This document shows positions 40,921 through 60,351 of a stretch of 64,000 nt of DNA, one piece after another. A program made the translations under genes and the position numbers. This DNA is from Clostridiales bacterium (lineage in GTDB: Bacteria > Bacillota > Clostridia > Lachnospirales > Lachnospiraceae): positions 26,286 through 90,285 of the forward strand of contig JAJBVE010000197.1 in the NCBI GenBank assembly GCA_020859995.1, in the 5' to 3' direction. The stretch's first letter is position 1; every line of letters starts with the position of its first letter. The notes below the pieces were generated by a model, which was not told where the DNA came from, did no database searches, and worked only from the letters and a program-made list of their open reading frames with translations.

Positions 40921-41003
40921 CGCGCACGGCTGCATAAGGAATTAGTACGGGCATATCCCAGAGAACAGTCCGTGTGCCGCGACAGCAGAAAGGGAGGAAC
41001 AAA

Positions 41004-42005
41004 ATGGGGACGATTCGTAATCTTGGATTTGGATTTTTGGGGCGCCATACGGCGAAGCAGACCATTGAGCTGGTACAGCGCGCGGAGGCGCTGGGATTTT
41101 CCAGCGCGTGGGTAGCGGAGGATTATTTTTATGGAGGGGCATTTGCTACTGTGTCGGCCTGCGCGGCCGCGACGACGAACATTCAGCTGGGCATTGGTGT
41201 AATTAATCCCTATACGCGTCACCCGGTACTGTCGGCTATGGAGGCGGCGGCGCTGGATTCTCTCTGTGGCGGACGGCTGATGCTGGCCATGGGCGCGAGC
41301 AATAAACGCTGGATGGAGCAGCAGATGGGGATTCCCTACCGCAAACCTCTGACTGCCACCTGCGAAGCCGTGGATATTATCAAAACACTGCTGCGGGACG
41401 GTCAGATCGACTACAGCGGCGAATTATTCCAGGCGGGGCCTCTGGAGCTTTCATTTGAACCGCTGCGGCGGGACATGCCGGTATACATGGGCGTGAAAGG
41501 GGATCGGGCGCTCTATATGGCCGGGCAAAAGGCGGATGGTGTACTGCTCTCCGTTGGCTGTACGCTGGAATATATTCAGCACGTCCGCGAGCGTATCACC
41601 GCGGGCGCAAACAGTGTGGGAAGGGATCCTTCGGAAATTCATATTGCTGCCTATCTGCCAACCTGCATCTGCGACAGCAGCGCGGAGGCAGTGGAGCGGA
41701 TGCGTTCGGAAGCCAGACGCTGCATTGGAATGCATGGTGCCCAGCCGATCCTGACATGCGGCGGATTCGCACCTGAGCAAGTACAGCCTTTCCGCGACGC
41801 GGTGATGGAAGGAAAAGTCTGTGATCTGCCGGTGACGGACGAGATGGTGCGTAAAGTGGTGATTGCCGGTACCCCGGATGAATGCCGCGAGCGTATTGAG
41901 GCATATGTGGCTGCAGGGGTAGAAATGCCGATTTGTTTTGAACTGAGCTGTGATACGGACGCAGTGTCAACTCTGGAGAATCTGAGCAGGTATTTGTTGC
42001 AGTAA
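41004..42005 (+). CDS. LLM-class flavin/F420-dependent oxidoreductase 1
   Basis: GFLGRHTAKQTIELVQRAEALGFSSAWVAEDYFYGG; ALDSLCGGRLMLAMGASN. Confidence 0.88.
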   Translation: MGTIRNLGFGFLGRHTAKQTIELVQRAEALGFSSAWVAEDYFYGGAFATVSACAAATTNIQLGIGVINPYTRHPVLSAMEAAALDSLCGGRLMLAMGASNKRWMEQQMGIPYRKPLTATCEAVDIIKTLLRDGQIDYSGELFQAGPLELSFEPLRRDMPVYMGVKGDRALYMAGQKADGVLLSVGCTLEYIQHVRERITAGANSVGRDPSEIHIAAYLPTCICDSSAEAVERMRSEARRCIGMHGAQPILTCGGFAPEQVQPFRDAVMEGKVCDLPVTDEMVRKVVIAGTPDECRERIEAYVAAGVEMPICFELSCDTDAVSTLENLSRYLLQ

Positions 42006-42099: not shown

Positions 42100-42136
42100 G
42101 TCAAAAGACGGCACAAAAAAATTTCTTGGCCAATGG

Positions 42137-42177: not shown

Positions 42178-42391
42178 CAAAAATGTCTTTTGCGGGAGAA
42201 CATCAGTCCATGGACTGGAGACAAAAGACAAAAAATATCCCCAAAAGTCCGTGAGAATGGATCATACAGGAGAAGAGGGAGCATTTAAGCGAATTCTTAC
42301 ACTGAACAGAATGAAAAATTAAATAAAATAAATTTCATTTTAATTCACTCCGCGGCGAATAGAAAAAGAGATGAGAAAGGTGGAAAAATTT

Positions 42392-42769
42392 ATGGAAAAG
42401 GTACAGACAAACCAGGCACCGGCGGCGATTGGCCCTTACTCACAGGGAATTGTTTACAAGGATATGGTATTTACATCGGGCCAGATACCGTTGGATCCTG
42501 TAACGGGAACGGTAGTGGGAGATGAGATCCGCAGTCAGAGCGAGCAGGTGATGAAAAATCTGGCTGCTGTGCTTGAGGCAGCCGGCTCTTCTCTGGAATG
42601 TGTGATAAAGACAACCTGCTTTTTAGCTGATATGTCAGATTTTGCTGCCTTCAATGAAGTATATGGCGGCTATTTCACGGGCTGCCCGGCGCGCTCCTGC
42701 GTAGCGGTAAAGGCTCTGCCAAAGGGTGTTCTGGTTGAAGTGGAGGCTATCGCTGTAAAGAACGCGTGA
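42392..42769 (+). CDS. RidA-family protein
   Basis: [55 protein letters not shown]. Confidence 0.95.
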
Positions 42770-42852
42770 ACGTGGAGCAATCCGTAAATCAGCTCTGCTG
42801 CCGGATGATGCTGCGTATAGATATTCGGGAACGGGTAATTCACGAGGATGAA

Positions 42853-44121
42853 ATGGAGACGGAGATGAAGACTTTACTGATTGTATGCGGCAAACTGTTT
42901 GACGGCATTCATGACACACTTCAGCCGGGCATGGAAATCCTGGTTGCGGGAGACCGAATCGAGGCGGTAGGCCGGGATTTGCCGCGCGGGGAAGAATGCC
43001 AGGTGATAGATCTTTCAGAGAAAACGGTTACTCCCGGTATGATTGACGCTCATGTTCATGCCGACGCGTTTGACAATGACAACATGTTTCAGGAAACCAT
43101 TTTCGCGTCTTCGACCTGGCGCAGCCTTGGCACTTTGCATACCGTGCAGCACGCGCTGCGGCGGGGATTTACGACCATCCGTGTTCCAGGTACGATCGAA
43201 CCCTTTGATTATGGCATCGCGGATGTGGCCCGTTCCGTTGAGAGGGGCTATTTTTCCGGATCCCGTCTGGTTTACACATTCGCCGCGCTTGGCGCGCCGG
43301 GAGGACACACCGATTTAAGTCAGCGCCTGTATCAGAACCCGAGACTGGCTGAACTTTACGCCAGTCAGGTAGAGGGAATGGGCAGCGGCGCGGATTATTT
43401 CCGGGACGCGGTGCGCAAACAGGTAAAGTATGGCGCGCAATTCATTAAGATAATGGCGAGCGGCGGCTTTGCCTCTCCGAACGACAGCCCGGAAGACAAA
43501 CAGCTTTCCGATGAGGAACTGGCCGCTATTATTGATACGGCTCATCAGCTGAATCGCCCCTGTACAGCCCATGTATACGCGCCTTACGTGATGCAGTGTC
43601 TGCTGCGTCTGGGAATTGACGGGATGGAGCATGGCTCCCTGATGGATGAGGAAACCGCGGGGATGTTTGAGGAGAGCGGCGCGTATCTGGTGCCTACTTT
43701 TCTGCCCTATGAAGAGATCGTGCATCCGGATGAGGAAAAATTAAAGAAAAAAGAGCCGGTATTTCAGCGCAAGCTCCGTTCTTATCAGAGACGGCTTCAG
43801 GAAAGTCGGGAGATTATACGGAAAAGCAATATTCGCCTGGGCTATGGTACGGATCTGGTGGCAGTGTATCAGCCCTATGAAAACGGCAGGGAATATGCCT
43901 GCTGGCTGCGCAGCGGGATGGATCCATTCCGGGCGCTTAAGGCAGCCACAAGCGTAAACGCGGAAATTCTGGGAATTGATGATATAGGGGTAATCGCGCC
44001 GGGAAAACGAGCGGACATCGCTGCCTGGAACCGTGATCTGCTGAGCGATGAGAACGCGCTTCTGGACTGTGCCTTTGTGATGAAGGACGGCGTGGTCTAT
44101 GAGACAGAATGCGGTCTCTAA
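42853..44121 (+). CDS. metal-dependent amidohydrolase (imidazolonepropionase/prolidase-like)
   Basis: VTPGMIDAHVHAD, FIKIMASGG, GMEHGSLM, GYGTDLVA, GVIAPGKRADIAAW. Confidence 0.9.
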   Translation: METEMKTLLIVCGKLFDGIHDTLQPGMEILVAGDRIEAVGRDLPRGEECQVIDLSEKTVTPGMIDAHVHADAFDNDNMFQETIFASSTWRSLGTLHTVQHALRRGFTTIRVPGTIEPFDYGIADVARSVERGYFSGSRLVYTFAALGAPGGHTDLSQRLYQNPRLAELYASQVEGMGSGADYFRDAVRKQVKYGAQFIKIMASGGFASPNDSPEDKQLSDEELAAIIDTAHQLNRPCTAHVYAPYVMQCLLRLGIDGMEHGSLMDEETAGMFEESGAYLVPTFLPYEEIVHPDEEKLKKKEPVFQRKLRSYQRRLQESREIIRKSNIRLGYGTDLVAVYQPYENGREYACWLRSGMDPFRALKAATSVNAEILGIDDIGVIAPGKRADIAAWNRDLLSDENALLDCAFVMKDGVVYETECGL

Positions 44122-44184: not shown

Positions 44185-45618
44185 ATGAGTCGAAAAGAAG
44201 AGATCGACATACTTGTGGAGGAGAGTGCTCCCATATTTGAGGATGTCTCCGACCAGATCTGGGGATTCGCGGAATTGTGTTATGAGGAAAAACAGTCTTC
44301 TGCGCTGCAGAAGAAGGTTTTACGCGAAATGGGATTTACGATTGAAGAGATCAAAGATATGCCAACCGCGTTTATTGCTTCTTACGGGCAGGGACATCCG
44401 GTTATCGCGATTTTGGGAGAGTATGACGCGCTGGCGAATCTGAACCAGCAGGCGGACTGTACCTGGCATAATCCCTTGGAGCCGGGAAAGCCCGGACATG
44501 GCTGCGGACATAATCTGCTGGGCGCGGGATCCATGTGCGCGGTAAATGCTGTAAAGCGGTATATGGAAGCCAATCATGTTACCGGCACGATTCGATACTA
44601 TGGATGCCCGGCCGAAGAAGGTGGAAGCGCCAAGACTTTTATGGTGCGGGACGGCTATTTTAAGGATTGCGACATTGAACTTTCCTGGCATCCGGCACAG
44701 TTTAATTACGGCTGGAATGGTCTGGACTGTCTGGGCACTTACAATGTTCTGTTTAAATTTGAAGGAATTGCCGCGCACGCGGCTGCCTGCCCGCAGCTGG
44801 GCCGCAGCGCACTGGATGCCTGCGAGCTGATGAATGTAGGCGTGAACTATCTGCGGGAGCATATCATTCCGGAAGCCAGGGTTCATTACGCGTATCTGGA
44901 CTGCGGCGGTACGGCGCCAAATGTTGTGCAGGCGAACGCGGAGCTGAGCTACGTGATCCGCGCTCCGAGAATGAGCGCTATGTATGATATTGCTGACCGT
45001 GTGATTGACTGCGCGAAGGGCGCGGCGCTTATGACCGGCACAAAGATGACTTATAAAGTCGTATCCGGGACCTCAAATCTGATTTCGACAAAGATCGTGC
45101 GGGATCGGTTTGATGAAAATCTGAAAGCATATCTGCCGGTGGCTTACACCCCGGAGGAAATAGCTTACGCGGAAAGCTTCCGGCAGACGCTGGATCCGAG
45201 CGATGAAAAAAGGCTGCTGGACAGCATTCGCGGCTCTTATCCGGAAAAAAGTGCTGCTGAGATCCGCGCGATGTATGAAGAGCCTATGGCAAACTGGTAT
45301 TGCCACGAGTACGGCAACGCGGCGTCTACTGATGCCGGGGATGTCTCCTGGGTAGTACCTGGCTGCCAGCTTCATGTGGCCTGCTATCCTGCGGGTGTGC
45401 CATTCCATTCCTGGCAGATGGTGGCAATGGGCAAGTCTTCTCTGGCTAAGCAGGGAATGAAGCTTGCCGCTAAAGTATTGGCGATGACTGCTCTGGACTT
45501 TATGCTGGATCCGTCCAGACTCAGCCAGGCTCGTAAGGATTACCAGGATGCTCTGGAGGGCGAGACTTACCGCTGCCCGCTGCCGGACACCCTGAAGCCG
45601 GGAGATAAGACTCTTTAA
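44185..45618 (+). CDS. M20-family amidohydrolase (AbgB-like)
   Basis: VIAILGEYDAL, GHGCGHNLLGAGS, YGCPAEEGGSAK, STDAGDVSWVVP. Confidence 0.92.
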   Translation: MSRKEEIDILVEESAPIFEDVSDQIWGFAELCYEEKQSSALQKKVLREMGFTIEEIKDMPTAFIASYGQGHPVIAILGEYDALANLNQQADCTWHNPLEPGKPGHGCGHNLLGAGSMCAVNAVKRYMEANHVTGTIRYYGCPAEEGGSAKTFMVRDGYFKDCDIELSWHPAQFNYGWNGLDCLGTYNVLFKFEGIAAHAAACPQLGRSALDACELMNVGVNYLREHIIPEARVHYAYLDCGGTAPNVVQANAELSYVIRAPRMSAMYDIADRVIDCAKGAALMTGTKMTYKVVSGTSNLISTKIVRDRFDENLKAYLPVAYTPEEIAYAESFRQTLDPSDEKRLLDSIRGSYPEKSAAEIRAMYEEPMANWYCHEYGNAASTDAGDVSWVVPGCQLHVACYPAGVPFHSWQMVAMGKSSLAKQGMKLAAKVLAMTALDFMLDPSRLSQARKDYQDALEGETYRCPLPDTLKPGDKTL

Positions 45619-45670
45619 GCGGACAGCCGCCGCGAGGTTTTTTGTTTACTGGAATTGCAAAGGAGTAGAT

Positions 45671-46699
45671 ATGAGTGATTCTGTTGCTTTTGGCGTGGGG
45701 ATACCCACCGGTACGGAGGGACTGATGTATCCGATCCCTTTTGTGCGCGATGTGCGTGACAACATTCGGATCGCGGAATTCGCGGAGCAGCTGGGATATG
45801 ACTCCGTTTGGGGCAACGACCATGTCGCGTCTCAGAAATATGTGACGGAGGAGTTTGGCCGCTCGCCGAATTATTACGCGCCGCTGCTGACTTTGGCGGC
45901 GATCGGAGAGCATACGACCCGGCTGAAGCTGGGCACGGCGCTGCTGGTATTGCCGTTCAGACAGCCTGGCATACTGGCGAAGGAGCTGGCGACTCTGGAT
46001 CATCTGTGCGGAGGCAGACTTCGCGTGGGAGTGGGCATTGGTGCCTACCGGGAGGAATTTGAGTCCCTGTTCGGAGATGCTGCCAGAGGCAAAAATCGCG
46101 GCGCCATGCTGGATGAATCGCTGGAAATGCTTCACCAGCTGTTTACGCGGGAGGAAGTTACCTTTCATGGCAATTATTTTCAGGTGGATCACCTTAGCGC
46201 CAACCCGAAACCGGTCAGTAATCCGTTCCCGTTTTATATAGGGGGAAACAGCCCTGCCGGGATGCGGCGCGCGGCGCGCTATGGTACCGGGTGGCTGCCG
46301 AGCGGATTTACGGTAGAGGAGATGCGGGAGCGCGTGGAGCAGCTGCGGGAACTGTTAGAGCAGCAGGGACGTAGCCCGGATGCTCTGGATATCGCCCCTC
46401 AGTTCAGCGTGGCTCTGGGCCGGACGCATGAGGAGGCGGTGGAGAAATATCGGAATTCTCAGCAATACAAACACATGTGTTCTTTGTCACAGTCGACGAT
46501 GCAGGGCCTGGATCTGGGTGACTGTACATCAAGGGATCTGATCGGAACTCCCCAGGAGATCCTGGAGCGCATAGAGGCGTACCGGGAAGCGGGAGTCACC
46601 AGTTTTCCGGCGCTGCTGTTCACCGCGAATGATATGGAAGGCTTTCTGCAGGAAATGCAGATGTTTGCGGAAGACGTCATGTCCAGGGTAGAAAGCTGA
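45671..46699 (+). CDS. LLM-class flavin/F420-dependent oxidoreductase 2
   Basis: AEQLGYDSVWGNDHVASQ, LDHLCGGRLRVGVGIGAYREEFE. Confidence 0.92.
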   Translation: MSDSVAFGVGIPTGTEGLMYPIPFVRDVRDNIRIAEFAEQLGYDSVWGNDHVASQKYVTEEFGRSPNYYAPLLTLAAIGEHTTRLKLGTALLVLPFRQPGILAKELATLDHLCGGRLRVGVGIGAYREEFESLFGDAARGKNRGAMLDESLEMLHQLFTREEVTFHGNYFQVDHLSANPKPVSNPFPFYIGGNSPAGMRRAARYGTGWLPSGFTVEEMRERVEQLRELLEQQGRSPDALDIAPQFSVALGRTHEEAVEKYRNSQQYKHMCSLSQSTMQGLDLGDCTSRDLIGTPQEILERIEAYREAGVTSFPALLFTANDMEGFLQEMQMFAEDVMSRVES

Positions 46700-46729
46700 A
46701 ACTCATCTGAAAAGAAAGGATGGCGAATC

Positions 46730-47743
46730 ATGAATGTCAAATATGTGATCAAAAGATTGCTGTATGCTCTGGTGGCCATATTGTTGGTAATTATCATTGT
46801 TTTTTTCCTGACCAGGATTATGCCGGGAGATCCGGCGCGTATGTATCTGGGTGAACAGGCAACGGATGAGCAGATTGCGCAGCTCAACGAAGAGTGGGGA
46901 CTGAACAAACCTCTCTGGGTACAGCTATTTAACTACATAAAGGGACTGACGCAGGGCGATCTTGGCTATTCGAATCATACTCATGCTTACGTGGTGGATG
47001 ATTTCGCGACGCGGCTGCCGGCAAGTCTGGAGCTTGCGATCTGCGCTCTTGGCCTGGCAGTGCTGATCGGCATTCCTCTTGGGATTGTCTCCGCAACCCA
47101 TAAGAATTCACTGATCGATCATCTTGCCCGTGTATTGTCCATGATGGGAGCCACCATGCCGGTGTTCTGGGTCGGGCTGATGCTGATTATGATCTTTTAC
47201 GCGAGGCTGGGATGGGCGCTGGCTCCGGTGGGGCGCCTCAGCCTGGGGCTGACTGCTCCGACGACCATTACTGGTCTGTATGTGCTGGACAGTATCCTCA
47301 CCGGTAATCTGGTGACTCTGAAAGACGCGGCTTCCCATCTTGTGCTGCCGACGATCACACTGAGTCTTCCCTCCATGGCGGTGATCGCCCGCATGACCCG
47401 ATCGAGTATGCTGGAAGTCCTGGGACAGGATTACATCCGCACGGTCCGCGCGAAGGGAATGTCTGAGCGGGTACTTGTCTACCGGCACGCGTTCCGCAAT
47501 GCTCTGATACCAATCCTGACTGTGCTGGGCGGACAGTTTGGTTCTCTGATGGGCTATACGGTCGTGGTGGAGACCATTTTCTCCTGGCCGGGTATCGGCT
47601 ATTATGTAACGGACTCAATCCTGAACGTGGATTACAACCCGGTACAGGCATTCGCACTTTTCAGCGCGGTTTTGTACGTTATCATCAACCTTGTTCTGGA
47701 TATTGTAAACTCGATGGTGGATCATCGGGTGAAATACGAATAG
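46730..47743 (+). CDS. peptide ABC transporter permease (DppB-like)
   Basis: RIMPGDPARMYLGEQAT, EVLGQDYIRTVRAKGMSERVLVYRHAFRNALIPI. Confidence 0.94.
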   Translation: MNVKYVIKRLLYALVAILLVIIIVFFLTRIMPGDPARMYLGEQATDEQIAQLNEEWGLNKPLWVQLFNYIKGLTQGDLGYSNHTHAYVVDDFATRLPASLELAICALGLAVLIGIPLGIVSATHKNSLIDHLARVLSMMGATMPVFWVGLMLIMIFYARLGWALAPVGRLSLGLTAPTTITGLYVLDSILTGNLVTLKDAASHLVLPTITLSLPSMAVIARMTRSSMLEVLGQDYIRTVRAKGMSERVLVYRHAFRNALIPILTVLGGQFGSLMGYTVVVETIFSWPGIGYYVTDSILNVDYNPVQAFALFSAVLYVIINLVLDIVNSMVDHRVKYE

Positions 47744-47768
47744 AACCGTACAAAAAGGAGGAAATACT

Positions 47769-48671
47769 ATGGAATCAACAGGGAAAACAACTGTCGATAC
47801 AGGAGCTGCCGCAGAGGCTCCCCGTCATGCTACAAGCTGGCAGATCTTCTGCAGAAACAAGATGGCGCTGGTCGGTCTGGCATTTATTCTGTTCTGGGTA
47901 GTGATTGCGCTTCTGGCGCCTTATATCGCTCCCTATAACCCTCTGGAGCTGAATTTTGGCGATAAACTTGTCCCTCCGGGAACCAATGGTCACTGGCTGG
48001 GGACCGATCAGTACGGAAGAGACATTTTGAGCCGGATCATGTATGGCGCGCGCATCAGTATCTGGTGCGGCGTGATTTCCGTGGGAATCTCTCTGGTAAT
48101 CGGGACAACCCTGGGCGGGATTGCCGGCTACTACGGCGGAGGCGTCAGCATGGTGATTATGCGTATTATGGATGCTCTGAGCGCGTTCCCGTCCCTTCTG
48201 CTGGCGATTGTAATTTCCACGATCATCGGCGGCGGTATGGTCAGTGCGATGATCGCGGTAGGTGTGGTCAGCATCCCGGATTACGCGAGACTGATGTTTT
48301 CCCAGACAGCCAGTATCCGCTCACGCCCTTATATTGAGGCAGGCGTAGCGGTGGGTCTGAAAAACAGCCAGCTGATTTACCGGCATATACTGCCGAACTG
48401 CATGAGTCAGCTGCTGGTGAAAGCTACGCTGGGTCTTGGCAGCGCGATCCTCACACTCTCCAGTCTGAGTTTCCTGGGAATGGGAGTGCAGCCTCCGACA
48501 CCGGAGTGGGGCAATATGATTTCGGAAGCGCGCAGCTATATCATTTCCGGAGAATGGTGGATGGCTACTTTTCCGGGAGTCGCGATTGTGACTTCGATCC
48601 TCGGTTTCAATCTGGTAGGAGACGGTGTCCGGGATATTCTGGATCCCCGCAACCGCTCCAGTCTGAACTGA
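47769..48671 (+). CDS. peptide ABC transporter permease (DppC-like)
   Basis: LGTDQYGRDILSRIMYGARIS, SSLSFLGMGVQPPTPEWGNMISEAR. Confidence 0.94.
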   Translation: MESTGKTTVDTGAAAEAPRHATSWQIFCRNKMALVGLAFILFWVVIALLAPYIAPYNPLELNFGDKLVPPGTNGHWLGTDQYGRDILSRIMYGARISIWCGVISVGISLVIGTTLGGIAGYYGGGVSMVIMRIMDALSAFPSLLLAIVISTIIGGGMVSAMIAVGVVSIPDYARLMFSQTASIRSRPYIEAGVAVGLKNSQLIYRHILPNCMSQLLVKATLGLGSAILTLSSLSFLGMGVQPPTPEWGNMISEARSYIISGEWWMATFPGVAIVTSILGFNLVGDGVRDILDPRNRSSLN

Positions 48672-48714
48672 GGTTGAAGAATATAAATGGAAATTAAAAA
48701 AGGAGGAACTAAAC

Positions 48715-50295
48715 ATGAAAAGAAAACTGGCATTCGTAATGGCAGCTGTGATGCTGGCCACAGTGCCTGCCGGCGTTGTGTGCGCGGATGAAGCGGAATC
48801 TGCTTCCGGCGGAAACATTGTAATCGCGGCGTCTTCTCTGGGCAGCACCCTGAATCCCTGGGATCAGACGGACGCTACGACATCCGCTTTCCAGTATGCT
48901 CTGTATGACAGACTGGTAAAGTATGACATTATCACAGACGAGGATGGAAACCTGGTAGCTGATACAGACACTCTGGTCGGCAGCCTCGCCGAATCCTGGG
49001 ATACCAGTGAGGACGGTCTGACCTGGACCTTCTACATTGATCCGGACGCGACCTTTGCTAATGGCGATCCGGTTACCGCGCAGGATGTCATCTGGTCCTT
49101 TGAACAGTGCCGCGACAACGCGAACTCCAGCTTCTTCTTCACCCTGACCAATATCACGGAGATGGAAGCAACGGATGATTCTACCGTAGTACTTACGCTG
49201 AGCAGCAAATGCAACATGTTCCTGCGTCTGCTGGAGATCTACAGCTTCTGCATCGTAGATCAGTCGGCGGCTGAGGAGGCAATGGCTACGGATTCTGAGT
49301 ATCTGACGACAAATGTATGCGGATCCGGCCCTTATGAACTGGTGACCTATGATACGACCAGCCAGGTAGTATTGCAGGCTCGTGACGATTACTGGGATAC
49401 AGATGCTCTGGCAGTGAATGATACAGTTACCTATCTGCTGGTGCAGGAAGCATCCGACCGTCAGATGATGCTGGAAAAGGGCGATGTGGATGTTGCCCTG
49501 GATCTCGAAGACAAGAATGTTCAGGAGCTTTCTGAGATGGAAGGCATCAACGTGGAACAGTTCGCTTCCAACAAGCATCTTTTCCTGTGCCTGAACTGCA
49601 ACATTGAGCCGTTTGACAATGAGCTGGTACGCCAGGCAATCGCTTACGCGATTCCGTATGACACGCTGGTGGATGAGATCATGTATGGCAACGCGACCGT
49701 GACCACATCCATGCTGCCGGAGGGCGTTACCGGACACATCGAGGATGAGAACACGCACTATGAGCAGGATATTGAGAAGGCGAAGGAACTTCTGGCAGAG
49801 GCAGGCTACGCGGATGGCTTCAGCTGCACAATGACTCTCGGCAATGGTTTCACTGACTGGGAGGAGAGCGCGGTTGTTATCCAGGCAGCGCTGGCGGAAA
49901 TCGGCATCAACATGACGATCAATGAGATTGACCGCGCTACGTTCCTGACACAGGCCGCGGAAGGCAATCTGGAAATCTTCCTGAACCGTTTCAATCCGTT
50001 CATCGGCGATCCGGGCTATCTGGTAAACTGCCTGTATACCACCGAGTCCAGCTACAACTATTATAACTACAGCAATGAGGAGTTCGATGCTCTGTATGAA
50101 GAGGCGGAAGCTGCCGCGACAGAAGAAGAGCGTCTGGCTATTTATGAAGAAATGCAGTATATCTTCGCTGAGGACTGCCCGGTAGTCGAGCTTTATACCT
50201 ACAGCTTCGCGTACTGCGGACGTGATAATGTGGAAGGCTTCGCGTACTTCCCGGATGGCACGATTCGTTTCCAGTATCTGAGCAAGACGGAGTAA
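48715..50295 (+). CDS. peptide ABC transporter substrate-binding protein (SBP family 5)
   Basis: Signal peptide; SLAESWDTSEDGLTWTFYIDPDATFANGDPVTAQDVIWSFE. Confidence 0.95.
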   Translation: MKRKLAFVMAAVMLATVPAGVVCADEAESASGGNIVIAASSLGSTLNPWDQTDATTSAFQYALYDRLVKYDIITDEDGNLVADTDTLVGSLAESWDTSEDGLTWTFYIDPDATFANGDPVTAQDVIWSFEQCRDNANSSFFFTLTNITEMEATDDSTVVLTLSSKCNMFLRLLEIYSFCIVDQSAAEEAMATDSEYLTTNVCGSGPYELVTYDTTSQVVLQARDDYWDTDALAVNDTVTYLLVQEASDRQMMLEKGDVDVALDLEDKNVQELSEMEGINVEQFASNKHLFLCLNCNIEPFDNELVRQAIAYAIPYDTLVDEIMYGNATVTTSMLPEGVTGHIEDENTHYEQDIEKAKELLAEAGYADGFSCTMTLGNGFTDWEESAVVIQAALAEIGINMTINEIDRATFLTQAAEGNLEIFLNRFNPFIGDPGYLVNCLYTTESSYNYYNYSNEEFDALYEEAEAAATEEERLAIYEEMQYIFAEDCPVVELYTYSFAYCGRDNVEGFAYFPDGTIRFQYLSKTE

Positions 50296-50316
50296 GGGCG
50301 GACCGTGTAAGATAAA

Positions 50317-50381
50317 ACGACTTCGTCGTTTATAAAGGAACTGTCGATGATTCCCCGCCGGACTAACATTCCGGCGGGGGA
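50317..50381 (+). other. two intercistronic hairpins between SBP and ATPase genes
   Basis: AAACGACttcGTCGTTT; CCCCGCCGG actaacatt CCGGCGGGG. Confidence 0.65.
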
Positions 50382-50401
50382 GACAACAGAACAAAAAGGT
50401 G

Positions 50402-51394
50402 ATGAATGTGGCAGAACCGATTTTGAAAGTAAGCGGGCTTTGTACCGAATTTCGGACAATTGACGGGGCAGTACGGGCAGTGGACGGCGTGGATTTTGAG
50501 CTCTATGCGGGGGAAACGCTGGGCATTGTTGGAGAATCGGGCTGTGGCAAAAGCGTAACTGCCCTTTCGATCATGCAGCTGCTCCAGAAGGGCGTCGGCA
50601 AGGTCGTAGAAGGAGAGATCCTGTTTGACGGGCGCGATATGCTCCGTATTTCTGAAAAAGAACTGAGAGATATTCGTGGCCGTGATATCGCGATGATTTT
50701 TCAGGACTCTATGACATCGCTCGATCCGGTGTTTACGATCGGGTTTCAGATGTCTGAGGTGCTGCGGCGGCACAAAGGAATGAAGAAAAAGGAAGCTATG
50801 GCTCAGGCTGTAAAGCTTCTGGAGGCGGTAGGCATCTCACGGCCGGATGAGATCGTCCGCAGCTATCCGCATGAATTATCAGGCGGAATGCTTCAGCGTG
50901 TAATGATTGCCATGGGACTTTCCTGTGATCCCAGGCTTCTGATTGCTGATGAGCCGACCACTGCGCTCGATGTAACGATTCAGGCGCAGATTCTGGATTT
51001 GATGAGCAACTTAAAAACGGAATATAATACCGGCATTCTGATGATTACACATAATATGGGCGTAGTCGCTGAGGTTTGCGATCGAGTGCTGGTTATGTAC
51101 GCGGGGTATGTGGTAGAAGTCGCCGAGGTGAAGGACTTGTTTGCCCGTCCCAGCCACCCATACACCCTGGGACTGCTTCAGTGTATCCCCAGACTGGATG
51201 AGGACCGGGAGGTGCTGGATACGATTTCCGGAACGGTACCGCCTCCCTATGCGATGCCGGCGGGATGCCGGTTTGCGCCGCGCTGCCCTTACGCGAAGCC
51301 GGAATGTGAAGCGTCGCGTCCCGAGCTTTATCCGATTGGAAACGGTCATCTTTGCCGCTGTTTCCGTTATAAGGAGGGAACCACAAATGCCTGA
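50402..51394 (+). CDS. peptide ABC transporter ATPase (DppD-like)
   Basis: [46 protein letters not shown]. Confidence 0.94.
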   Translation: MNVAEPILKVSGLCTEFRTIDGAVRAVDGVDFELYAGETLGIVGESGCGKSVTALSIMQLLQKGVGKVVEGEILFDGRDMLRISEKELRDIRGRDIAMIFQDSMTSLDPVFTIGFQMSEVLRRHKGMKKKEAMAQAVKLLEAVGISRPDEIVRSYPHELSGGMLQRVMIAMGLSCDPRLLIADEPTTALDVTIQAQILDLMSNLKTEYNTGILMITHNMGVVAEVCDRVLVMYAGYVVEVAEVKDLFARPSHPYTLGLLQCIPRLDEDREVLDTISGTVPPPYAMPAGCRFAPRCPYAKPECEASRPELYPIGNGHLCRCFRYKEGTTNA

Positions 51395-52397
51395 TATGCC
51401 TGTAAAAGAAAAGACTGCCGGCACAGAAAACCAGCTGTTGACGGTAGATCATCTGAAGACCTATTTTACAAGCCGGAAAGGACTGTTTGGACGTGACACC
51501 AGCGTGGTACGGGCCGTGGATGATGTGTCCTTTACGGTAAGCCGGTGTGAGACACTGGGCATTGTGGGTGAGTCCGGCTGTGGAAAATCTACAATGGGAC
51601 GTTCTGTGCTGCGCCTGATCGAGCCAACGGAGGGAAGCGTGGTTTTTGACGGTGTGGATGTCAGAGGTTTGAGTCCGGAAGAAATGCGTAAGTTCCGCAA
51701 GCGGATGCAGATTGTTTTTCAGGATCCACTCTCTTCCCTGGATCCGCGCTATACGATTGAGCGGACATTAGCTGAACCGCTGCGGCAGCATACGAATATG
51801 AGCAAGGCGGAGATTCATGACCGGGTGCTGGAGCTGATGGACCGGGTGGGACTGCAGGCATTTCATGCAGCCAAATATCCGCATGAGTTTTCGGGCGGAC
51901 AGCGTCAGCGTATTGGCATCGCGCGCGCGATTTCTCTGGAGCCGGATTTCATTGTCTGTGACGAACCGGTATCCGCGCTGGATGTTTCTATTCAGTCTCA
52001 GGTGCTGAATCTGCTGAGGGAGCTCCAGCATCAGATGAATTTGTCATACCTTTTCATTTCCCACGATCTTTCGGTGGTGAAGTACATCAGCGACCGGGTC
52101 GCGGTAATGTATCTGGGTCATATTGTTGAGATGGCGGAGTCTAAGGAGTTGTTTGCTCATAAGCTGCATCCATATACGCAGGCTCTGACCAGCGCGATAC
52201 CGATTCCGGATCCGCTCCAGAAAAAGGATCGGATTGTGCTGGAGGGCAATGTGCCGAATCCCGCGAATCCGCCTGCCGGATGTCCTTTCCACGAACGATG
52301 CAAGCAGTGCATGGCTGTCTGTCAGGAGCAGATGCCTGCTATGCGGGAGGCAGCGCCGGGGCATTACGTCAGCTGTCATCTGTATGATACGCATTGA
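51387..52397 (+). CDS. peptide ABC transporter ATPase (DppF-like)
   Basis: [28 protein letters not shown]; overlaps previous gene. Confidence 0.94.
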
Positions 52398-52401
52398 GTG
52401 A

Positions 52402-52439
52402 GGGGCAAACGAACCTGAGCAGTCAGGTTTGCTTGCCCC
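52402..52439 (+). other. intercistronic hairpin
   Basis: GGGGCAAACGAACCTGA gcag TCAGGTTTGCTTGCCCC. Confidence 0.6.
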
Positions 52440-52493
52440 AGATTGCTCTGTGATGTGAAGGAAAATATATTGAGTCAGAAAGGGTGGTACAGG

Positions 52494-54485
52494 ATGAAAA
52501 CACTGGAGATGGAGGATTTTCTGCAATACAAGTATCTTTCTGGTCTGAACTGCTCGCCGGACGGCCGAACCGCGGCCTGGCTGGTTCGTACTGCGGATTT
52601 GGAGAAAAACGGTTATAACGCGGCTCTCTGGATACAAAGTGGAGATGAACAAAAATGCTTGGCATTCCATATTGGAGCAGGCGGGTTCTGCTGGGAAGAT
52701 GAAACACATCTATTGTATCATGAAGCGTTGGCCGAAAATAAGAATAATGGAAGCACCCGCCTGAACCGTGTTGACGTTGTTACCGGTGAGGCGAGTGAGG
52801 CGTTTATTCTGCCTTTTGCCGCCAGCGAGATAGCGGTGCTGGACGAGGAACGCCTGCTTGCGCTAAGTCTGATTGATGCCGGCGAGCCGGACGCGTATCG
52901 TATGAGTGAAGAGGAGCGAAATGCGGCGGCGCTGCGCGCGGAAAAAGAAAAAGATTTTCAGGTCATAGATGAGCTGCCTTACCGATTTAACGGCCGCGGC
53001 TACATCAACAAGCGGCGAAACGCGCTGTTTACAGTGGACCGCTCTTCCGGCACCGCAAAGCGGATCAGCGGAGCGCTTCAGGATGTGAACTCGTACGCGG
53101 TGATGGATGGAAAGCTGTATTACTGCGCGGAGACGTTTCAGACAAAAATGCTTTATCGGCAGGACATTTTCTGCTATGATCCTGCTCTGGATACTACCCG
53201 CTGCCTGTATGATGGCGGCGCTTATCAGATCGAATATCTGATGCCTTTCCAGGGTGCGCTGATCTTTGCGGGCGGTACGCAGGAACGATATGGTTATAAT
53301 GAAAACCCGATGTTCTACCGCGTTGATACGGCCGACGGAACGGTGACTCTGTTTTCGGATAACCCGGACTCTTTGCATCCGGCGGTTGCCAGTGACTGCC
53401 GTCTGGGCAGGACACGTCTGTCGCAGGTTTGCGGAGACCAGATTTATTATCTGGCCACACGGGAGACATCGGTGTGTCTGATGAGGATGGACGCGGAAGG
53501 AAACCGCACGGAAGTAATCGGGGATGAGGGCAGTGTGGATGACTTTGCTGTCTGCCCGGAAATGGGTGGCATTCTGGTGGTCGGCATGTATGACAACAGA
53601 CTGCAGGAGCTGTATGCGTTTGATTGCAATGGACAGAAACGCAGGCAGATCAGTGATTTTAACACTGAGATTCTGGAAGGAAAATATGTGGCATCCTGTG
53701 AGAGAATCCGATTCCCGTTTGCTGACTACGAGCTGGACGGCTGGGTGCTGTGTCCGGCCGATTATGATCCGGAAAAAACTTATCCGGCTATCCTGGATAT
53801 TCACGGCGGCCCCAAAATGACCTATGGAGAGACGTTCTATCATGAAATGCAGGTGTGGGCGAACCGGGGCTATTTTGTATTTTACTGCAATCCGGTCGGA
53901 TCAGACGGGCGCGGCAATGATTTCGTGGATATGCGTGGAAAATATGGCACGGTGGATTATGACAGCCTGATGTGTTTCACGGACACTGTGCTGGCGCGTT
54001 ACCCGCAGATCGATCCGAACCGCCTGGCTGTCACCGGAGGAAGCTATGGCGGCTACATGACGAATTGGATGATCACACATACGAATCGTTTCGCCTGCGC
54101 GGCGTCACAGAGAAGCATCACCAACTGGCTGAGTTTTTATGGGACCTCTGATCTGGGCTATAATTTTAACACGGACCAGATGGCGGCTACCCCATTTGAC
54201 GGTCCGGAGCAAATGTGGAACGCTTCTCCTCTGAAGTATGCGGCAAACGCCAAAACCCCTACGCTTTTTATACACTCGGATGAAGATTACCGCTGCCCGC
54301 TTGGTGAGGGCCTGCAGCTTTATACAGCCCTTGTAGATCATGGAGTACCTGCGAGAATGTGTATTTTTAAAGGAGAAAACCATGAACTGAGCCGGTCCGG
54401 CCGTCCGAGAGGAAGACTGCGCCGTCTGCAGGAAATTACTGCCTGGATTGAACATTATACAAAATCGGAACAAAAAGGAGAATGA
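52494..54485 (+). CDS. S9-family (prolyl oligopeptidase-type) peptidase
   Basis: YPAILDIHGGPKMTYG, LAVTGGSYGGYMTNWM, IHSDEDYRCPLGEGLQ, GENHELSRSGRP. Confidence 0.94.
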   Translation: MKTLEMEDFLQYKYLSGLNCSPDGRTAAWLVRTADLEKNGYNAALWIQSGDEQKCLAFHIGAGGFCWEDETHLLYHEALAENKNNGSTRLNRVDVVTGEASEAFILPFAASEIAVLDEERLLALSLIDAGEPDAYRMSEEERNAAALRAEKEKDFQVIDELPYRFNGRGYINKRRNALFTVDRSSGTAKRISGALQDVNSYAVMDGKLYYCAETFQTKMLYRQDIFCYDPALDTTRCLYDGGAYQIEYLMPFQGALIFAGGTQERYGYNENPMFYRVDTADGTVTLFSDNPDSLHPAVASDCRLGRTRLSQVCGDQIYYLATRETSVCLMRMDAEGNRTEVIGDEGSVDDFAVCPEMGGILVVGMYDNRLQELYAFDCNGQKRRQISDFNTEILEGKYVASCERIRFPFADYELDGWVLCPADYDPEKTYPAILDIHGGPKMTYGETFYHEMQVWANRGYFVFYCNPVGSDGRGNDFVDMRGKYGTVDYDSLMCFTDTVLARYPQIDPNRLAVTGGSYGGYMTNWMITHTNRFACAASQRSITNWLSFYGTSDLGYNFNTDQMAATPFDGPEQMWNASPLKYAANAKTPTLFIHSDEDYRCPLGEGLQLYTALVDHGVPARMCIFKGENHELSRSGRPRGRLRRLQEITAWIEHYTKSEQKGE

Positions 54486-54488
54486 CCT

Positions 54489-55682
54489 ATGGAACTGAAA
54501 GAGTATCGTCTGTCCCGCCTGAAAAAGTTGGCCGCTGATATGGGCGCGGAAATGATCGTGGCAACCTTGCCGGCAAATATCAATTACCTGACTGGCGGCT
54601 ATATCAGTGTTAACCAGGAAGTGCTGACACGGTCAGAGTGCGCCATTGCCTATCTGCCGGGAAAAGATAAGTATGTTTATATTGTGGGCTACGCGGATCT
54701 GCCTACGGTATTTGAATTTGCCGGAGTCGACGCGGAGGTTTATTTCAACGGCGGCGCGTTCTGTTTTGAGCGGGGCGCAGATCAGGATCCTTTTGTAGAG
54801 CGGATTATGAATTGCCAGAAACTGGCGTATCCAACTTCAGCGGACGCGTGGGAAGCCGCGATTCGGAACAATCTTCCGGCCAATGCCGCAATCGCGGTAG
54901 ATGAGAGCCGGATTTTCCCGAGCGCGCTGGCGCAGATACAGAGTAAGCTGCCGGACTATCGTTTTCTGGATGGAACCGCTCTGTTTATGGAGGCCAGGAA
55001 AATCAAGCATCCGGATGAGGTTGCGGGCGTGGAACGCTCCGCTCGCTGCGCGGCGGAATCGCTGATGGCGGCGCTGGCTGATTTTAAACCTGGCATGACA
55101 GAGTATGAGATTGGTATGAGCTATAACGTAGAACTGGCAAAGCGAGGCGCAAAACCCTATTTCTGTACGGTTACCTCTCAGAAGCGGGCAGCTTTTTCGG
55201 ATACGACCAATGACCGGGTACGCCCGATTGTCAGCGGAGATATGATCCGCTTTGACTTTGGCTGCATCCTGGAAGGTTATTGCTCAGATCTGGGGCGCTT
55301 TGCCGTAGTAGGGGAGCCCACGGATAAAATGAAAAATTATTATGCCGCGCTGAAAGCCGGAGTGGACGCGGCGGCCGCGGCGGCAAAGCCTGGAATTACA
55401 GCCGGGGAGCTGTTTGATACCGCTATGAAAGCAGTCCGTGAAAATGGTATTCCGCACTATCGCCGTCATCACACCGGACATGGCATCGGCCTGGAGTGCT
55501 ATGATGAGCCTACAGTAGCGAGCGGTAATCGTACCCCGATTCTGGAAAATATGACCTTCAATCTGGAGACCCCTTACTATGAGCTGGGCTGGGGCGGAAT
55601 GATGATTGAGGATACCTTTGCGATGACTTCTTCCGGAGTCAGAATGCTGGATCACACAACGCGTGATATCATCAGATTGTAA
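54489..55682 (+). CDS. M24-family Xaa-Pro peptidase
   Basis: IRFDFGCILEGYCSDLGR, HHTGHGIGLECYDEP, NLETPYYELGWGGMMIEDTF. Confidence 0.94.
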   Translation: MELKEYRLSRLKKLAADMGAEMIVATLPANINYLTGGYISVNQEVLTRSECAIAYLPGKDKYVYIVGYADLPTVFEFAGVDAEVYFNGGAFCFERGADQDPFVERIMNCQKLAYPTSADAWEAAIRNNLPANAAIAVDESRIFPSALAQIQSKLPDYRFLDGTALFMEARKIKHPDEVAGVERSARCAAESLMAALADFKPGMTEYEIGMSYNVELAKRGAKPYFCTVTSQKRAAFSDTTNDRVRPIVSGDMIRFDFGCILEGYCSDLGRFAVVGEPTDKMKNYYAALKAGVDAAAAAAKPGITAGELFDTAMKAVRENGIPHYRRHHTGHGIGLECYDEPTVASGNRTPILENMTFNLETPYYELGWGGMMIEDTFAMTSSGVRMLDHTTRDIIRL

Positions 55683-55708
55683 AAACTTAAAGCAGGAGGA
55701 AGAAGCAT

Positions 55709-56488
55709 TTGAGAGCCATTACGTTTTATCCTCTGGAAGGACTTCCGGAGGTGCGCTGTGGAGATGATCTGGCCGAATTGCTGCTTCGCGCGCTCTCACC
55801 GCTGTGTCCTGTGCCGGGAGATATTCTGGTTGTCACACACAAGATTGTTTCTAAGGCGGAGGGCGCGGTGCGTACACTTGAGGAGATTCGCCCGACCACG
55901 CAGGCGGAAGCGATCGCTGTCCGCACTGAGAAGGATCCTCGCCAGGTGCAGGCGATTCTGGACTGTTCGAGTCATGTATGGGCCTGTGAAAGGGGGATTG
56001 TGATGGCGGAGCGGCCGGATGGATGGGTCTGCGCGAACGCCGGTGTAGACGCTTCCAATGCCGGAGGTGACGGACGTCTGGTATTGCTTCCAGACGATTG
56101 TGACGCGATCGCGCGCCGGCTGGGCCTTGCGCTTGCAGAGCATTTGGGGATGGAGCTGCCGGTGATTATCTGTGATACGCATGGCCGAGCTCTCCGAAAT
56201 GGCGCGGTCGGAGTCTGCGTAGGCTGCTACGGGCTGGAGACGATGCGCCGCTATCGGGGGAGTGCTGACCGGGATGGAAGGATGCTTATGCATACCTCGG
56301 AAGCCGTTGCCGATGAAGTGGCGGCCGGTGCGACCCTGGTGATGGGACAGGGCAGCGAGGGAGTGCCCGCTGTACTGGTGCGGGGGTGCGGTCTGGCTTT
56401 TGCAAAGAGCGGAAGCGAAGACCTGAAGCGTTCGGAAGAACAGCGTCTGTATACGATAAAGCCAGAGTGTTGTAAAATGAGCATTTAG
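55709..56488 (+). CDS. coenzyme F420-0:L-glutamate ligase-like protein (CofE/FbiB N-terminal family)
   Basis: PGDILVVTHKIVSKAEGAV, VCANAGVDASN, LLPDDCDAIARRL, VIICDTHGRALRNGAVGVCVG; TTG start with AGGAGG upstream. Confidence 0.85.
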   Translation: MRAITFYPLEGLPEVRCGDDLAELLLRALSPLCPVPGDILVVTHKIVSKAEGAVRTLEEIRPTTQAEAIAVRTEKDPRQVQAILDCSSHVWACERGIVMAERPDGWVCANAGVDASNAGGDGRLVLLPDDCDAIARRLGLALAEHLGMELPVIICDTHGRALRNGAVGVCVGCYGLETMRRYRGSADRDGRMLMHTSEAVADEVAAGATLVMGQGSEGVPAVLVRGCGLAFAKSGSEDLKRSEEQRLYTIKPECCKMSI

Positions 56489-56537
56489 CAGCAGAGTGAA
56501 ATTTGAAGAATACAAAGAAAAGGTGGATACATAATAA

Positions 56538-57095
56538 ATGAAACTGGATTTAAAACCTTTAAGAAGAATGATTTACATTGCGATGCTGGCTGCAATTGCC
56601 ATGGTAATTATGCATATGGGATTTTCGATTATCCCTGCGGCTTCTTACCTGAAATATGAGCCGAGCGGAGCGGTAATCCTGCTGAGCGGTCTGCTGTTAG
56701 GTCCGGGCGCGGCCGCAGAATGCGCGCTTGTAAAGTGTGTGTTGTATTTCTTTACGCACGGCGGCAGTCCGTATGGGCATTTAAGTGATCTGATCGCAAT
56801 GCTGTCTTTTTCCTGTACTGTTTCCGGCCTGTTTCATCATTTTGGAGTGAAACAGATCAGGCGGCTGGCTCTGTGTTGTGTGGCAGGGTGCGCTGTGGTG
56901 ACTCTGGTGATGATCCCTGCGAATTATGTTATCCTGCATCTGCAATATGGAATGACTCCGGCAGCGGTCAGCGCTACTATGATTTATGTGATTCCTTATA
57001 ATCTGCTGAAATCCGGATTGAACAGTGTCATCGCGGTGGCGCTGTATCCGCGGGTGGAGAGCAGTCTGCGAAAGCTGAGCGGCAAGGGTGAGTGA
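56538..57095 (+). CDS. ECF transporter S component, RibU-like
   Basis: Hydrophobic 185 aa; SYLKYEPSGAVILLSGLLLGPGAAAECALVKCVLYF and LVMIPANYVIL resemble RibU/FmnP. Confidence 0.78.
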   Translation: MKLDLKPLRRMIYIAMLAAIAMVIMHMGFSIIPAASYLKYEPSGAVILLSGLLLGPGAAAECALVKCVLYFFTHGGSPYGHLSDLIAMLSFSCTVSGLFHHFGVKQIRRLALCCVAGCAVVTLVMIPANYVILHLQYGMTPAAVSATMIYVIPYNLLKSGLNSVIAVALYPRVESSLRKLSGKGE

Positions 57096-57116
57096 CGCGC
57101 GGCGGAAAGGAGTTTT

Positions 57117-57881
57117 ATGGAAGAAAACAGGGCTTATCAGAACCTGATGCAGCGCAAGTCTGCAAGGGATTTTCTGGACAAAGAGGTGGAGCCGGAAAAG
57201 AAAGAGAAGATTTTTGCTGCTCTGATGGCTGCTCCTACAACGGAAAATATGATGATGTTCAGCGTAATCGAGGTATCGGATCGGGATATCCGCGATAAGC
57301 TTTCCCGTCAGCCTGCTATCCGGAAAGCGCCTCTTGTATTGGTTTTCTGCGCGGACTATCGGAGATGGACCAGACTGTTTGACGGCCTGAGCGCAAGCGG
57401 ACGCCGCCCGCAGCTTGGCGAGTACCAGTTGGCTTTGATTGACGCGGTGCTGGCGGCACAAAACGCGGTAGTGGCAGCGGAAAGTCTCGGACTCTCGTCG
57501 GTGTATCTTGGAGATATTATGGAGCATAGTGAAGATCGGGCGGCAGCGCTTGGACTTCCGTGCGGAGTAACGCCGGTGGTGACGCTCTGTATTGGCTATG
57601 CCACGCAGGCGCAGCTGGAACGTCAGCCGACCCGCCGATATGAGCAGCGCTACCTGATTTCGGAAAATGCCTACCAGGATTACAGCCGGGAAGAGCTGGA
57701 ATCCATGGTGCAGCATAGACTTGGACATGAGAGTCTGGAGCAGACACAGGAGTGGCTGCGAAAATTCGCGAAACGCTGCGTGGATGGGAAAGGCGCTCTG
57801 GAGCGTACACGCTCAATTGAGTCCGCCCTGAGCAGCTGGGGTGAGATTTCTTTCGACACGGATTCTAAGGAGAAGGACTAA
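57117..57881 (+). CDS. nitroreductase-family FMN protein
   Basis: NLMQRKSARDFLDKEV, AAPTTENMMMF, LALIDAVLAAQNAVVAAESLGLSSVYLGDI. Confidence 0.9.
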   Translation: MEENRAYQNLMQRKSARDFLDKEVEPEKKEKIFAALMAAPTTENMMMFSVIEVSDRDIRDKLSRQPAIRKAPLVLVFCADYRRWTRLFDGLSASGRRPQLGEYQLALIDAVLAAQNAVVAAESLGLSSVYLGDIMEHSEDRAAALGLPCGVTPVVTLCIGYATQAQLERQPTRRYEQRYLISENAYQDYSREELESMVQHRLGHESLEQTQEWLRKFAKRCVDGKGALERTRSIESALSSWGEISFDTDSKEKD

Positions 57882-57922
57882 GAAAAATCAATTATTATGA
57901 TAAATAAAAGGAGGTTTTGTCA

Positions 57923-58936
57923 ATGAAAGCGAAATTTGGTATTGGAGTGGCTACTGGTACAGAAGGATTGATGTATCCAATCCCTTATTCATCAGCGAGA
58001 GATGTCGTAGAACTTTCTGTCTACGCAGAACAGCTGGGGTTTGATTCTGTCTGGGGAAATGATCATATTACCACTCAGAATTATGTCCGTGAGGAGTTTG
58101 AGACGGCGCCGCGTTATTATTCTCCGCTGTTGCTGATGTCCGCGATCGCTGAGCGTACTACGAAGCTGAAGGTAGCTACGGCTCTGCTGGTAGTTCCATT
58201 CCGCCATCCGCTGGTGATGGCCAAGGAGATCGCGACGCTGGATCAGCTCTGCAACGGCCGTTTTATGCTGGGTGTAGGCCTTGGCGCTTATCGGGAGGAG
58301 TTTGAGGCACAGTATGGCGCTCAGGCCAAAGGAATGGTGCGCGGGAAAATGTTTGATGAGTCCATTGAGATTATGCACAGGCTCTTTACGGAGGATAATG
58401 TGACATTCCATGGCAAATATTATGATGTCTGCAATGCGCAGAGCTTCCCACATCCGGTGCAGGATCCGTTCGCGTTTTATTTTGGCGGCAACAGTACAAA
58501 TGGATATGAGCGTGTGGCTAAGTGGGGTACGGGCTGGCTTCCGGCGCTGCTGACTCCGGACGAGATCCGCGCAGGAGTAGAGGCTCTTGGCGAGGCGTGC
58601 GCGAATCATGGCCGCAGTATCAGTGAAATTGATATTGCGCCGCAGCTTTCCGTATCCATCGCGAAGACTCATGAAGAGGCGGTAGAGCGATATGAGAAGT
58701 CACAGATTTACCGTCACAGCTGCTCACTGGGCAAATCAACCATGAAAGGGAAAGACGCAACGAACTATCTGGAACGCAACCTGATTGGATCCGCTGAGGA
58801 AGTGCGGGAACAGGTGGCCCGGTATATCGAGGCAGGCGTTACTACTTTCTCGGCATTGATTTTTGCGGACAATACGCTCGAAGAGACCAGAGAACATATG
58901 CAGTTTTTTGCTGAAGAGGTTATCCAGAAGTTCTGA
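57923..58936 (+). CDS. LLM-class flavin/F420-dependent oxidoreductase 3, paralogue of 45671-46699
   Basis: GTEGLMYPIPYSSARDVVELSVYAEQLGFDSVWGNDHITTQ, GVGLGAYREEFE. Confidence 0.92.
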   Translation: MKAKFGIGVATGTEGLMYPIPYSSARDVVELSVYAEQLGFDSVWGNDHITTQNYVREEFETAPRYYSPLLLMSAIAERTTKLKVATALLVVPFRHPLVMAKEIATLDQLCNGRFMLGVGLGAYREEFEAQYGAQAKGMVRGKMFDESIEIMHRLFTEDNVTFHGKYYDVCNAQSFPHPVQDPFAFYFGGNSTNGYERVAKWGTGWLPALLTPDEIRAGVEALGEACANHGRSISEIDIAPQLSVSIAKTHEEAVERYEKSQIYRHSCSLGKSTMKGKDATNYLERNLIGSAEEVREQVARYIEAGVTTFSALIFADNTLEETREHMQFFAEEVIQKF

Positions 58937-59100
58937 CGTGTATGCGTATTTTGCCGCGCATAAGTAAGAAAGGGTATCTGAGGTCTTGCGTGTCCGCGTC
59001 ATGGGACTGGAAATTTACAGGAACAGGAATCAGATAAAAAAGAATCAGATAAAAGAATCAGAGAAAGGAATGTCGAGCATGTCTGCTCGATCGGAGTGTT

Positions 59101-60351
59101 ATGAATCACTATAAAGAAATGGTCTGCATCCGCTGCGGTCATCCTCTGGGCAGCGGAAACCTTTATGAAGGCTGCCCTGTCTGCAAGGCTCAGGGAGTAG
59201 GGGCGAATTATACGACAGTTTATGATCTCAATGGTGCTAGTCTGCCGGAAGCCGGCGGCCAGCCGGGCATTTTTCGCTGGCGGGATTTCTACCCACTGGC
59301 GGAGGACGCGGTGCCGGTGAGTATTGGAGAGGGAAATACACCGCTGCTGCATCTTTCCAGACTTGGAGAAGAGATTGGTCTCCCAAATCTGTATGTGAAG
59401 GATGAGACCAGGAACCCTACACTATCTTATAAGGATCGTATTTGCTCTTTGCTTGTATCCATGGCCCGCTACGACGGCGCGCCTGCTGTGACAATATCTT
59501 CTACTGGAAATCACGGCGCTGCTGCCGCTGCATACGCAGCCGCGGCCGGTCTGCCCTGCATTGTGTTTACGGTACCGCAGGTTCCCCAGACAATGAAAAC
59601 GCTGATGCAGGTCTATGGTGCCTGCGTAATAGTCACACCTACCGCTAAGGATCGGTGGACCATCATGAAGCAGTGTGTGGAACAGCTTGGCTGGGCACCG
59701 CTGAGTGGCTATCAGTCACCGGCTATCGGTACCAGTGCCTGTGGAATTGACGCTTATAAATCGATTTCATTTGAGATTTATGAACAGATGGGTGGAAAGA
59801 TGCCTAAAGCGATTTCAGTGCCTGCCTGCTATTCGGACGGTCTGTACGGCACCTATAAGGGAGCCTGTGATCTGAAAGCAATGGGATATATAGAGGAACT
59901 GCCTCAGTTTGTAGCTGCCGAAGTGTTCGGCTCTTTGCAGACTACAGTGGAATCCGGAGAAAAGGATCCGGTTGTGGTGCCGTCTGACTGGTCTGTTTCG
60001 TTCTCTATCGCCAACGGACAGTGTACCTGGCAGGGGCTTCAGGCTGTGAGAGGTTCCAACGGATGGGCAAGATCTTCCAGCGACAGCGAGACGCTGAAAA
60101 TGCAGCGATTGCTGGCGTCCAAAGAAGGAATTTACGCGGAGGCAAGTTCCGTCACCAGCCTTGTGGCATTGCAGAAGTTGGCGGCTGAAAAGAAGCTGAA
60201 TCCAGACGACAAGGTGGTAGCGGTGCTGACTTCTACCGGATTGAAAGATCCGGAGACAACAGCGAAGGAGCTTGCTCCTGTTCCCCAGATTGCTCCGGAG
60301 ATGTCGGAGCTTCGAGCTGTATTGCGGGATACTTACGGGCTGCGGATTTGA
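59101..60351 (+). CDS. threonine synthase-like PLP-dependent enzyme
   Basis: IRCGHP...CPVC N-terminal Zn motif, IGEGNTPLLHLSRLG, NPTLSYKDR, ISSTGNHGAAAAAYAA. Confidence 0.88.
   Translation: MNHYKEMVCIRCGHPLGSGNLYEGCPVCKAQGVGANYTTVYDLNGASLPEAGGQPGIFRWRDFYPLAEDAVPVSIGEGNTPLLHLSRLGEEIGLPNLYVKDETRNPTLSYKDRICSLLVSMARYDGAPAVTISSTGNHGAAAAAYAAAAGLPCIVFTVPQVPQTMKTLMQVYGACVIVTPTAKDRWTIMKQCVEQLGWAPLSGYQSPAIGTSACGIDAYKSISFEIYEQMGGKMPKAISVPACYSDGLYGTYKGACDLKAMGYIEELPQFVAAEVFGSLQTTVESGEKDPVVVPSDWSVSFSIANGQCTWQGLQAVRGSNGWARSSSDSETLKMQRLLASKEGIYAEASSVTSLVALQKLAAEKKLNPDDKVVAVLTSTGLKDPETTAKELAPVPQIAPEMSELRAVLRDTYGLRI

Follow-up and report, generated by a model that had tools for sequence, protein, structure and literature searches.

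What might a lone gene for the F420-0:L-glutamate ligase CofE do in a member of the Lachnospiraceae: serve the salvage of a cofactor made by other organisms, or some other reaction? The gene lies in a stretch of 64,000 nucleotides (the window). Three plus-strand ORFs within positions 55709–57881, all complete and in frame, encode a CofE-like ligase, an ECF transporter S component and a nitroreductase, in this order; the family assignments of an earlier note on this DNA were confirmed by matches to PF01996/TIGR01916, PF12822 and PF00881, respectively. The trio, with intergenic gaps of 20–50 bp, sits toward the end of an all-plus-strand gene run (40974–60351) in which the gaps around the trio are short and which is bounded by ppk and an opposite-strand Rnf operon (Table 1, genes in their order in the run). 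The trio had also been described as flanked by genes for luciferase-like (LLM) oxidoreductases; this holds downstream, where LLM3 adjoins, but the upstream neighbour encodes an M24 peptidase, and the other two LLM genes belong to the same run without being adjacent. The cofE gene starts with TTG and has AGGAGG upstream, and the best start of LLM3 is the ATG at 57923. The riboflavin-degradation (fin) locus of Lachnospiraceae was considered as the identity of the operon and rejected, as it consists of different genes.

Table 1. Genes of the run 40974–60351, with the models or structures on which each assignment rests.
Feature	Position	Strand	Basis
LLM1, Mer-like luciferase-like oxidoreductase	40974..42005	+	PDB Mer 1z69 E=6e-40
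RidA enamine/imine deaminase	42371..42769	+	TIGR00004 170 bits, above cut-off; PF01042
Amidohydrolase, Xaa-Pro dipeptidase / arginine carboxypeptidase-like	42766..44121	+	PF01979; NF051886 243 bits (under cut-off); PDB 3mkv, 3feq
M20-type amidohydrolase (Xaa-Arg dipeptidase / HmrA-like)	44185..45618	+	TIGR01891 226 bits, above cut-off; PDB 8xzc, 3ram
LLM2, luciferase-like oxidoreductase, TIGR03619 group	45671..46699	+	TIGR03619 218 bits (cut-off 166.9)
Five-gene dipeptide/oligopeptide-type ABC importer: two permeases, solute-binding protein (48715-50295), two ATPases	46730..52397	+	Solute-binding protein PF00496 E=4e-92; permeases and ATPases identified by translation
S9 prolyl-oligopeptidase-family peptidase	52488..54485	+	PF00326 E=3e-52
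M24 (Xaa-Pro peptidase-like) metallopeptidase	54489..55682	+	PF00557 E=2e-44
CofE, F420-0:L-glutamate (gamma-glutamyl) ligase, 259 aa	55709..56488	+	TIGR01916, PF01996, structure model
S component of an ECF transporter, RibU-like, apparently a diverged second copy	56538..57095	+	PF12822, PDB RibU
NfsA/NfrA/Frp-type nitroreductase / NAD(P)H:flavin oxidoreductase	57117..57881	+	PF00881, NF008033, PDB 5uu6
LLM3, luciferase-like oxidoreductase, TIGR03619 group	57923..58936	+	TIGR03619 190 bits (cut-off 166.9)
Threonine-synthase-like PLP enzyme	59101..60351	+	PF00291; top model NF006050 under its cut-off

The codon usage of the gene run fits that of the host chromosome (r = 0.87–0.92, compared with about 0.1 for the low-GC region at 15–36 kb), and a chimeric contig was therefore judged unlikely. 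The low-GC segment 15700–36700 (33–47% GC) contains ORFs that resemble genes for helicases, recombinases and recombination proteins, together with a tyrosine integrase (35246–36649), and looks like an integrated mobile element. The gene run was not found next to the Rnf operon in the five relatives examined, nor was the same run present in any of the 80 best CofE loci; viral contigs gave no match to CofE or LLM3, and no riboswitch (FMN or other) was found in the part of the window from 36 to 64 kb. In one relative (locus L159, 16065–18827), a gene for a 920 aa protein with repeated FMN-binding-domain-like units adjoins the Rnf operon.

The CofE-like protein scored 244 bits against TIGR01916 (equivalog cut-off 180.65) and matched PF01996 with E=5e-64. 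Its AlphaFold model (pLDDT 91, alignment of 32 sequences) superimposed on CofE of Archaeoglobus fulgidus (PDB 2phn and 7uld) with a TM score of 0.89–0.92 at 42% identity, and there was no other structural match. In the A. fulgidus structures the F420 ring is contacted by the backbone of G153–C155, by F92 and by R234 of the partner chain, and glutamate is added to the carboxylate of the phospholactate in F420-0 (PMC10861534). Residues retained in the window protein (A. fulgidus numbering) are D109, N112, D150, T151, G153, R154, R219 and R234, including two metal ligands (D109 and D150), the F420-ring contacts G153/R154 and the stacking Arg (R234). Position 92 is hydrophobic, typical of most CofEs, and E208 is replaced by Q, the commonest residue there among CofEs; the equivalents of S128 and D239 are I and R. 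The active-site residues had been singled out in the earlier note as a point to check, and those of the F420-ring, metal and GTP sites are present in a model with the CofE fold. Judged by sequence and predicted structure, 55709–56488 encodes a true CofE with an intact F420-ring site. Folate could instead be the substrate of this ligase, as has reportedly been proposed from comparative genomics for a chlamydial COG1478 protein of the same superfamily; however, the folate-type model TIGR04132 gave 76 bits (cut-off 350), compared with 244 for the CofE model, and folate genes were not recognised in the operon, which makes this reading very improbable.

Profile searches of the genome (4.4 Mb, 239 contigs, 97% complete, so that up to 3% may be missing) gave no match to CofC (PF01983), CofD (PF01933) or CofH (TIGR03551), although each of these models finds homologues in control genomes. 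The lack of pathway homologues noticed earlier in the window is thus repeated at genome scale. Since CofC and CofD, which are needed to convert Fo to F420-0, were not found, imported Fo could not feed CofE, and a salvaged molecule would therefore have to carry the phospholactate already. The proposal that uptake of Fo would be enough for use of an F420-like cofactor is accordingly dropped, as the CofE acceptor is the phospholactate of F420-0. The organism might still make F420 itself, with cofC, cofD and cofG/cofH in the unassembled part of a genome of 239 contigs. The literature treats F420 as a cofactor that its users make themselves, and known producers are described as inheriting CofE along with the other pathway genes (PMC8498797); the latter would agree with such a reading. 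It is decidedly unlikely, however: three separate families are all missing in spite of the positive controls, and a standard CofE was found in none of the sampled relatives in the family, where PF01996 otherwise matched fragments or another protein, about 400 aa long.

PF01996 matched 1 of the 47 genomes of the genus and 92 of 397 in the family, nearly all of the latter through this different protein of about 400 aa and a few through fragments. Compared with CofE, the longer COG1478 protein contains about 160 inserted residues; it is present in about one-fifth of the sampled family genomes (about 80 matches); in the one gene examined (locus L002, 1477–2670) it adjoins the threonyl-tRNA synthetase gene thrS. 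Identity of the window CofE with this common protein was rejected. Used as a query, the window CofE found a counterpart in 1 of 392 genomes of the order (its own; 0 of 391 others) and in 11 of 399 genomes of the phylum, the closest sequences being CofEs of Chloroflexota, archaea and others (36–50% identity). Proteins of the LLM3/LLM2 type were equally confined to the host within the family sample (1 of 348 genomes; 0 of 347 others), and in the phylum sample the two genomes that, apart from the host, match CofE best are also the top two for the LLM. The strongest contextual evidence is this occurrence of two rare F420-linked genes in one gene run, and the combination of an orphan CofE with F420-type oxidoreductases is real and rare. 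That cofE was left over from, or carried along by, horizontal transfer and now has no role would fit its long branch (see below), the absence of neighbouring F420 biosynthesis genes and the absence of CofE from the sampled relatives, but intact reading frames, tight spacing, host-like codon usage and the retained catalytic residues make this quite improbable.

The LLM proteins bear on what the product of the ligase would be used for. LLM1 found its best structural match in Mer (1z69), the next family being Fgd (E=7e-13). Its scores lie under the Mer cut-offs (PRK02271, 190 vs 276 bits; TIGR03555, 184 vs 349), and in the alignment to Mer it has Gly in place of a Glu that we take to be catalytic (an entry for a mutant Mer structure was among the matches); on both grounds, the identification of LLM1 as a Mer was rejected. 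In a tree it clusters, with support of 100/99, with Chloroflexota LLMs encoded near CofE. LLM2 and LLM3, which are 54% identical and both exceed the TIGR03619 cut-off, have mixed F420 and FMN enzymes as structural relatives, and their clade includes two LLMs of CofE-less genomes. Among plasmid records, the top match of LLM3 comes from a Paraburkholderia plasmid whose cof cluster is complete; haloarchaeal matches rank next. The top models for all three window LLMs are F420 models, in agreement with the earlier suggestion of F420-type enzymes; among ten control LLMs from outside the window, all eight from CofE-less Bacillota genomes scored best on non-F420 models and both from CofE-bearing genomes on F420 models. 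At the level of these family comparisons, F420 use appears likely for LLM1 and has a fair case for LLM2 and LLM3.

The window CofE itself has diverged. Five of its substitutions (R92A, S134I, A207G, D246R and F248Y) fall at positions at least 90% conserved in relatives; it departs at 5 of 43 highly conserved columns, a count near the top of the range for true CofEs, and in a quick tree its branch length is 1.77 against a median of 0.49. Constraint on the protein may have changed or been relaxed. R234 and R219 are lost in two non-canonical COG1478 sets, a Bacillus thuringiensis plasmid cluster and family f73 (loci L034 and L036), and the two such homologues that were scored both fell under the TIGR01916 cut-off. 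On the B. thuringiensis plasmid pCT127 (locus L174, 5974–6744), the genes beside an orphan CofE-like ligase without the F420-stacking Arg encode a TIM-barrel protein and a shikimate dehydrogenase-like one. Family f73 has a divergent CofE-like gene whose product is missing the F420-ring residues; it adjoins a nitroreductase gene, and a gene for a TIM-barrel protein (sugar-phosphate isomerase-like) lies next to it.

The existence of these orphans without nearby cof genes, one set of them beside a nitroreductase, and the long branch and unusual substitutions of the window CofE lend some weight to the main rival of F420 salvage. According to it, CofE would have been recruited as a general, GTP-using ligase forming an amide between glutamate (or some other amine) and a different carboxylic acid that the operon makes or degrades, and the LLMs would work with FMN from the flavin reductase-like nitroreductase. 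The resemblance of the operon to peptide/amide catabolism and the NADPH:flavin reductase-type gene next to LLM3 point the same way. Yet the window CofE keeps both arginines and passes the CofE cut-off, unlike the orphan homologues, the LLMs score best on F420 models, and FMN-dependent LLM monooxygenases need oxygen, which would make them unlikely in an apparent anaerobe. We regard such a repurposing as possible but doubtful.

The S component matched PF12822 with 52 bits (cut-off 30.7), PF07155 being just under its cut-off, and its best solved relatives are RibU of Thermotoga maritima and Staphylococcus aureus (PDB RibU E=5e-19). The RibU motif S[ED][IV]P reads SGAV, one invariant Asn is Asp, and the last helix retains its N..K; an ordinary RibU is encoded elsewhere in the same genome. 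By motif comparison the window protein appears to be a diverged second RibU paralogue, for which a changed ligand is plausible. Its single-sequence structure model (pLDDT 43) was unusable. A second RibU copy alone proves nothing about the ligand, because 12.5% of Lachnospiraceae are reported to have one (PMC12934955). RibU of Listeria is required for growth on FMN or FAD (PMC9973259), which indicates that RibU proteins can carry phosphate-tailed flavins. The nitroreductase scored 62 bits against PF00881, 112 bits against NF008033 (below the cut-off of 223) and 31 bits against the FbiB C-terminal model (cut-off 250), with PDB 5uu6 as a structural match; these scores place it with the NfsA/NfrA/Frp-like proteins and not with the FbiB-C/FbiE type. 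A split FbiB arrangement, which the earlier note had read into the trio, therefore does not apply.

Taken together, we favour, at a little short of an even chance, an operon for F420 salvage and F420 use in a bacterium that has no F420 synthesis of its own and obtains the cofactor from its neighbours. The host appears to be anaerobic and is probably gut-dwelling. F420-0 or short-tailed F420 with its phospholactate attached, released for example by methanogens, would enter the cell, either by way of the RibU-like S component or, conceivably, with the help of the peptide ABC importer. With GTP, CofE would then build a gamma-glutamyl tail from glutamate or extend one already there; as expected from the CofE family, this would retain the cofactor in the cell and fit it to its enzymes. 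The three LLMs may take the cofactor as hydride carrier in the breakdown of an imported peptide-like compound, on which the peptidases, amidohydrolases, RidA and PLP enzyme would also act. The scheme in its full detail, an F420 auxotroph supplied by methanogens through a repurposed RibU-type ECF transporter, with the tail rebuilt by CofE and the cofactor used in peptide catabolism, is more tentative, and we hold it, taken as a whole, to be rather unlikely. Neither an F420 review nor the open-access literature searched describes F420 uptake or salvage. If salvage is true, F420 would be a cross-fed, vitamin-like shared cofactor, entailing a new bacterial dependence on methanogens, and the orphan CofE, F420-type LLMs and RibU-like S component would form a searchable genomic signature; if CofE has been repurposed instead, a well-studied ligase would gain a new substrate.

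Compared with known systems, the window CofE shares with the A. fulgidus enzyme the fold, D109, D150, G153/R154 and R234, but differs at E208 (Q), S128 (I) and D239 (R) and belongs to a genome without CofC, CofD and CofH. Mycobacterial FbiB unites a CofE domain with an FMN-binding nitroreductase-fold domain; in the window, CofE and a nitroreductase are likewise encoded close together, but the two genes are not fused, the S component gene lies between them, and the nitroreductase is NfsA/Frp-type. The riboflavin importer ECF-RibU provides the nearest solved relatives of the S component and shares its last-helix N..K, whereas the window protein has SGAV for S[ED][IV]P and Asp for a second invariant residue, an Asn. 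Among F420-dependent LLMs, Mer is nearest to LLM1, which nevertheless lacks the catalytic Glu and falls under the Mer cut-off, and LLM2 and LLM3 lie above the cut-off of the TIGR03619 group. The plasmid F420 clusters of Paraburkholderia (PGU19) and Agrobacterium rubi resemble the window in combining CofE and LLM oxidoreductases on one element, but carry cofC, cofD, cofH and npdG beside cofE, whereas the window genome is without cofC, cofD and cofH.
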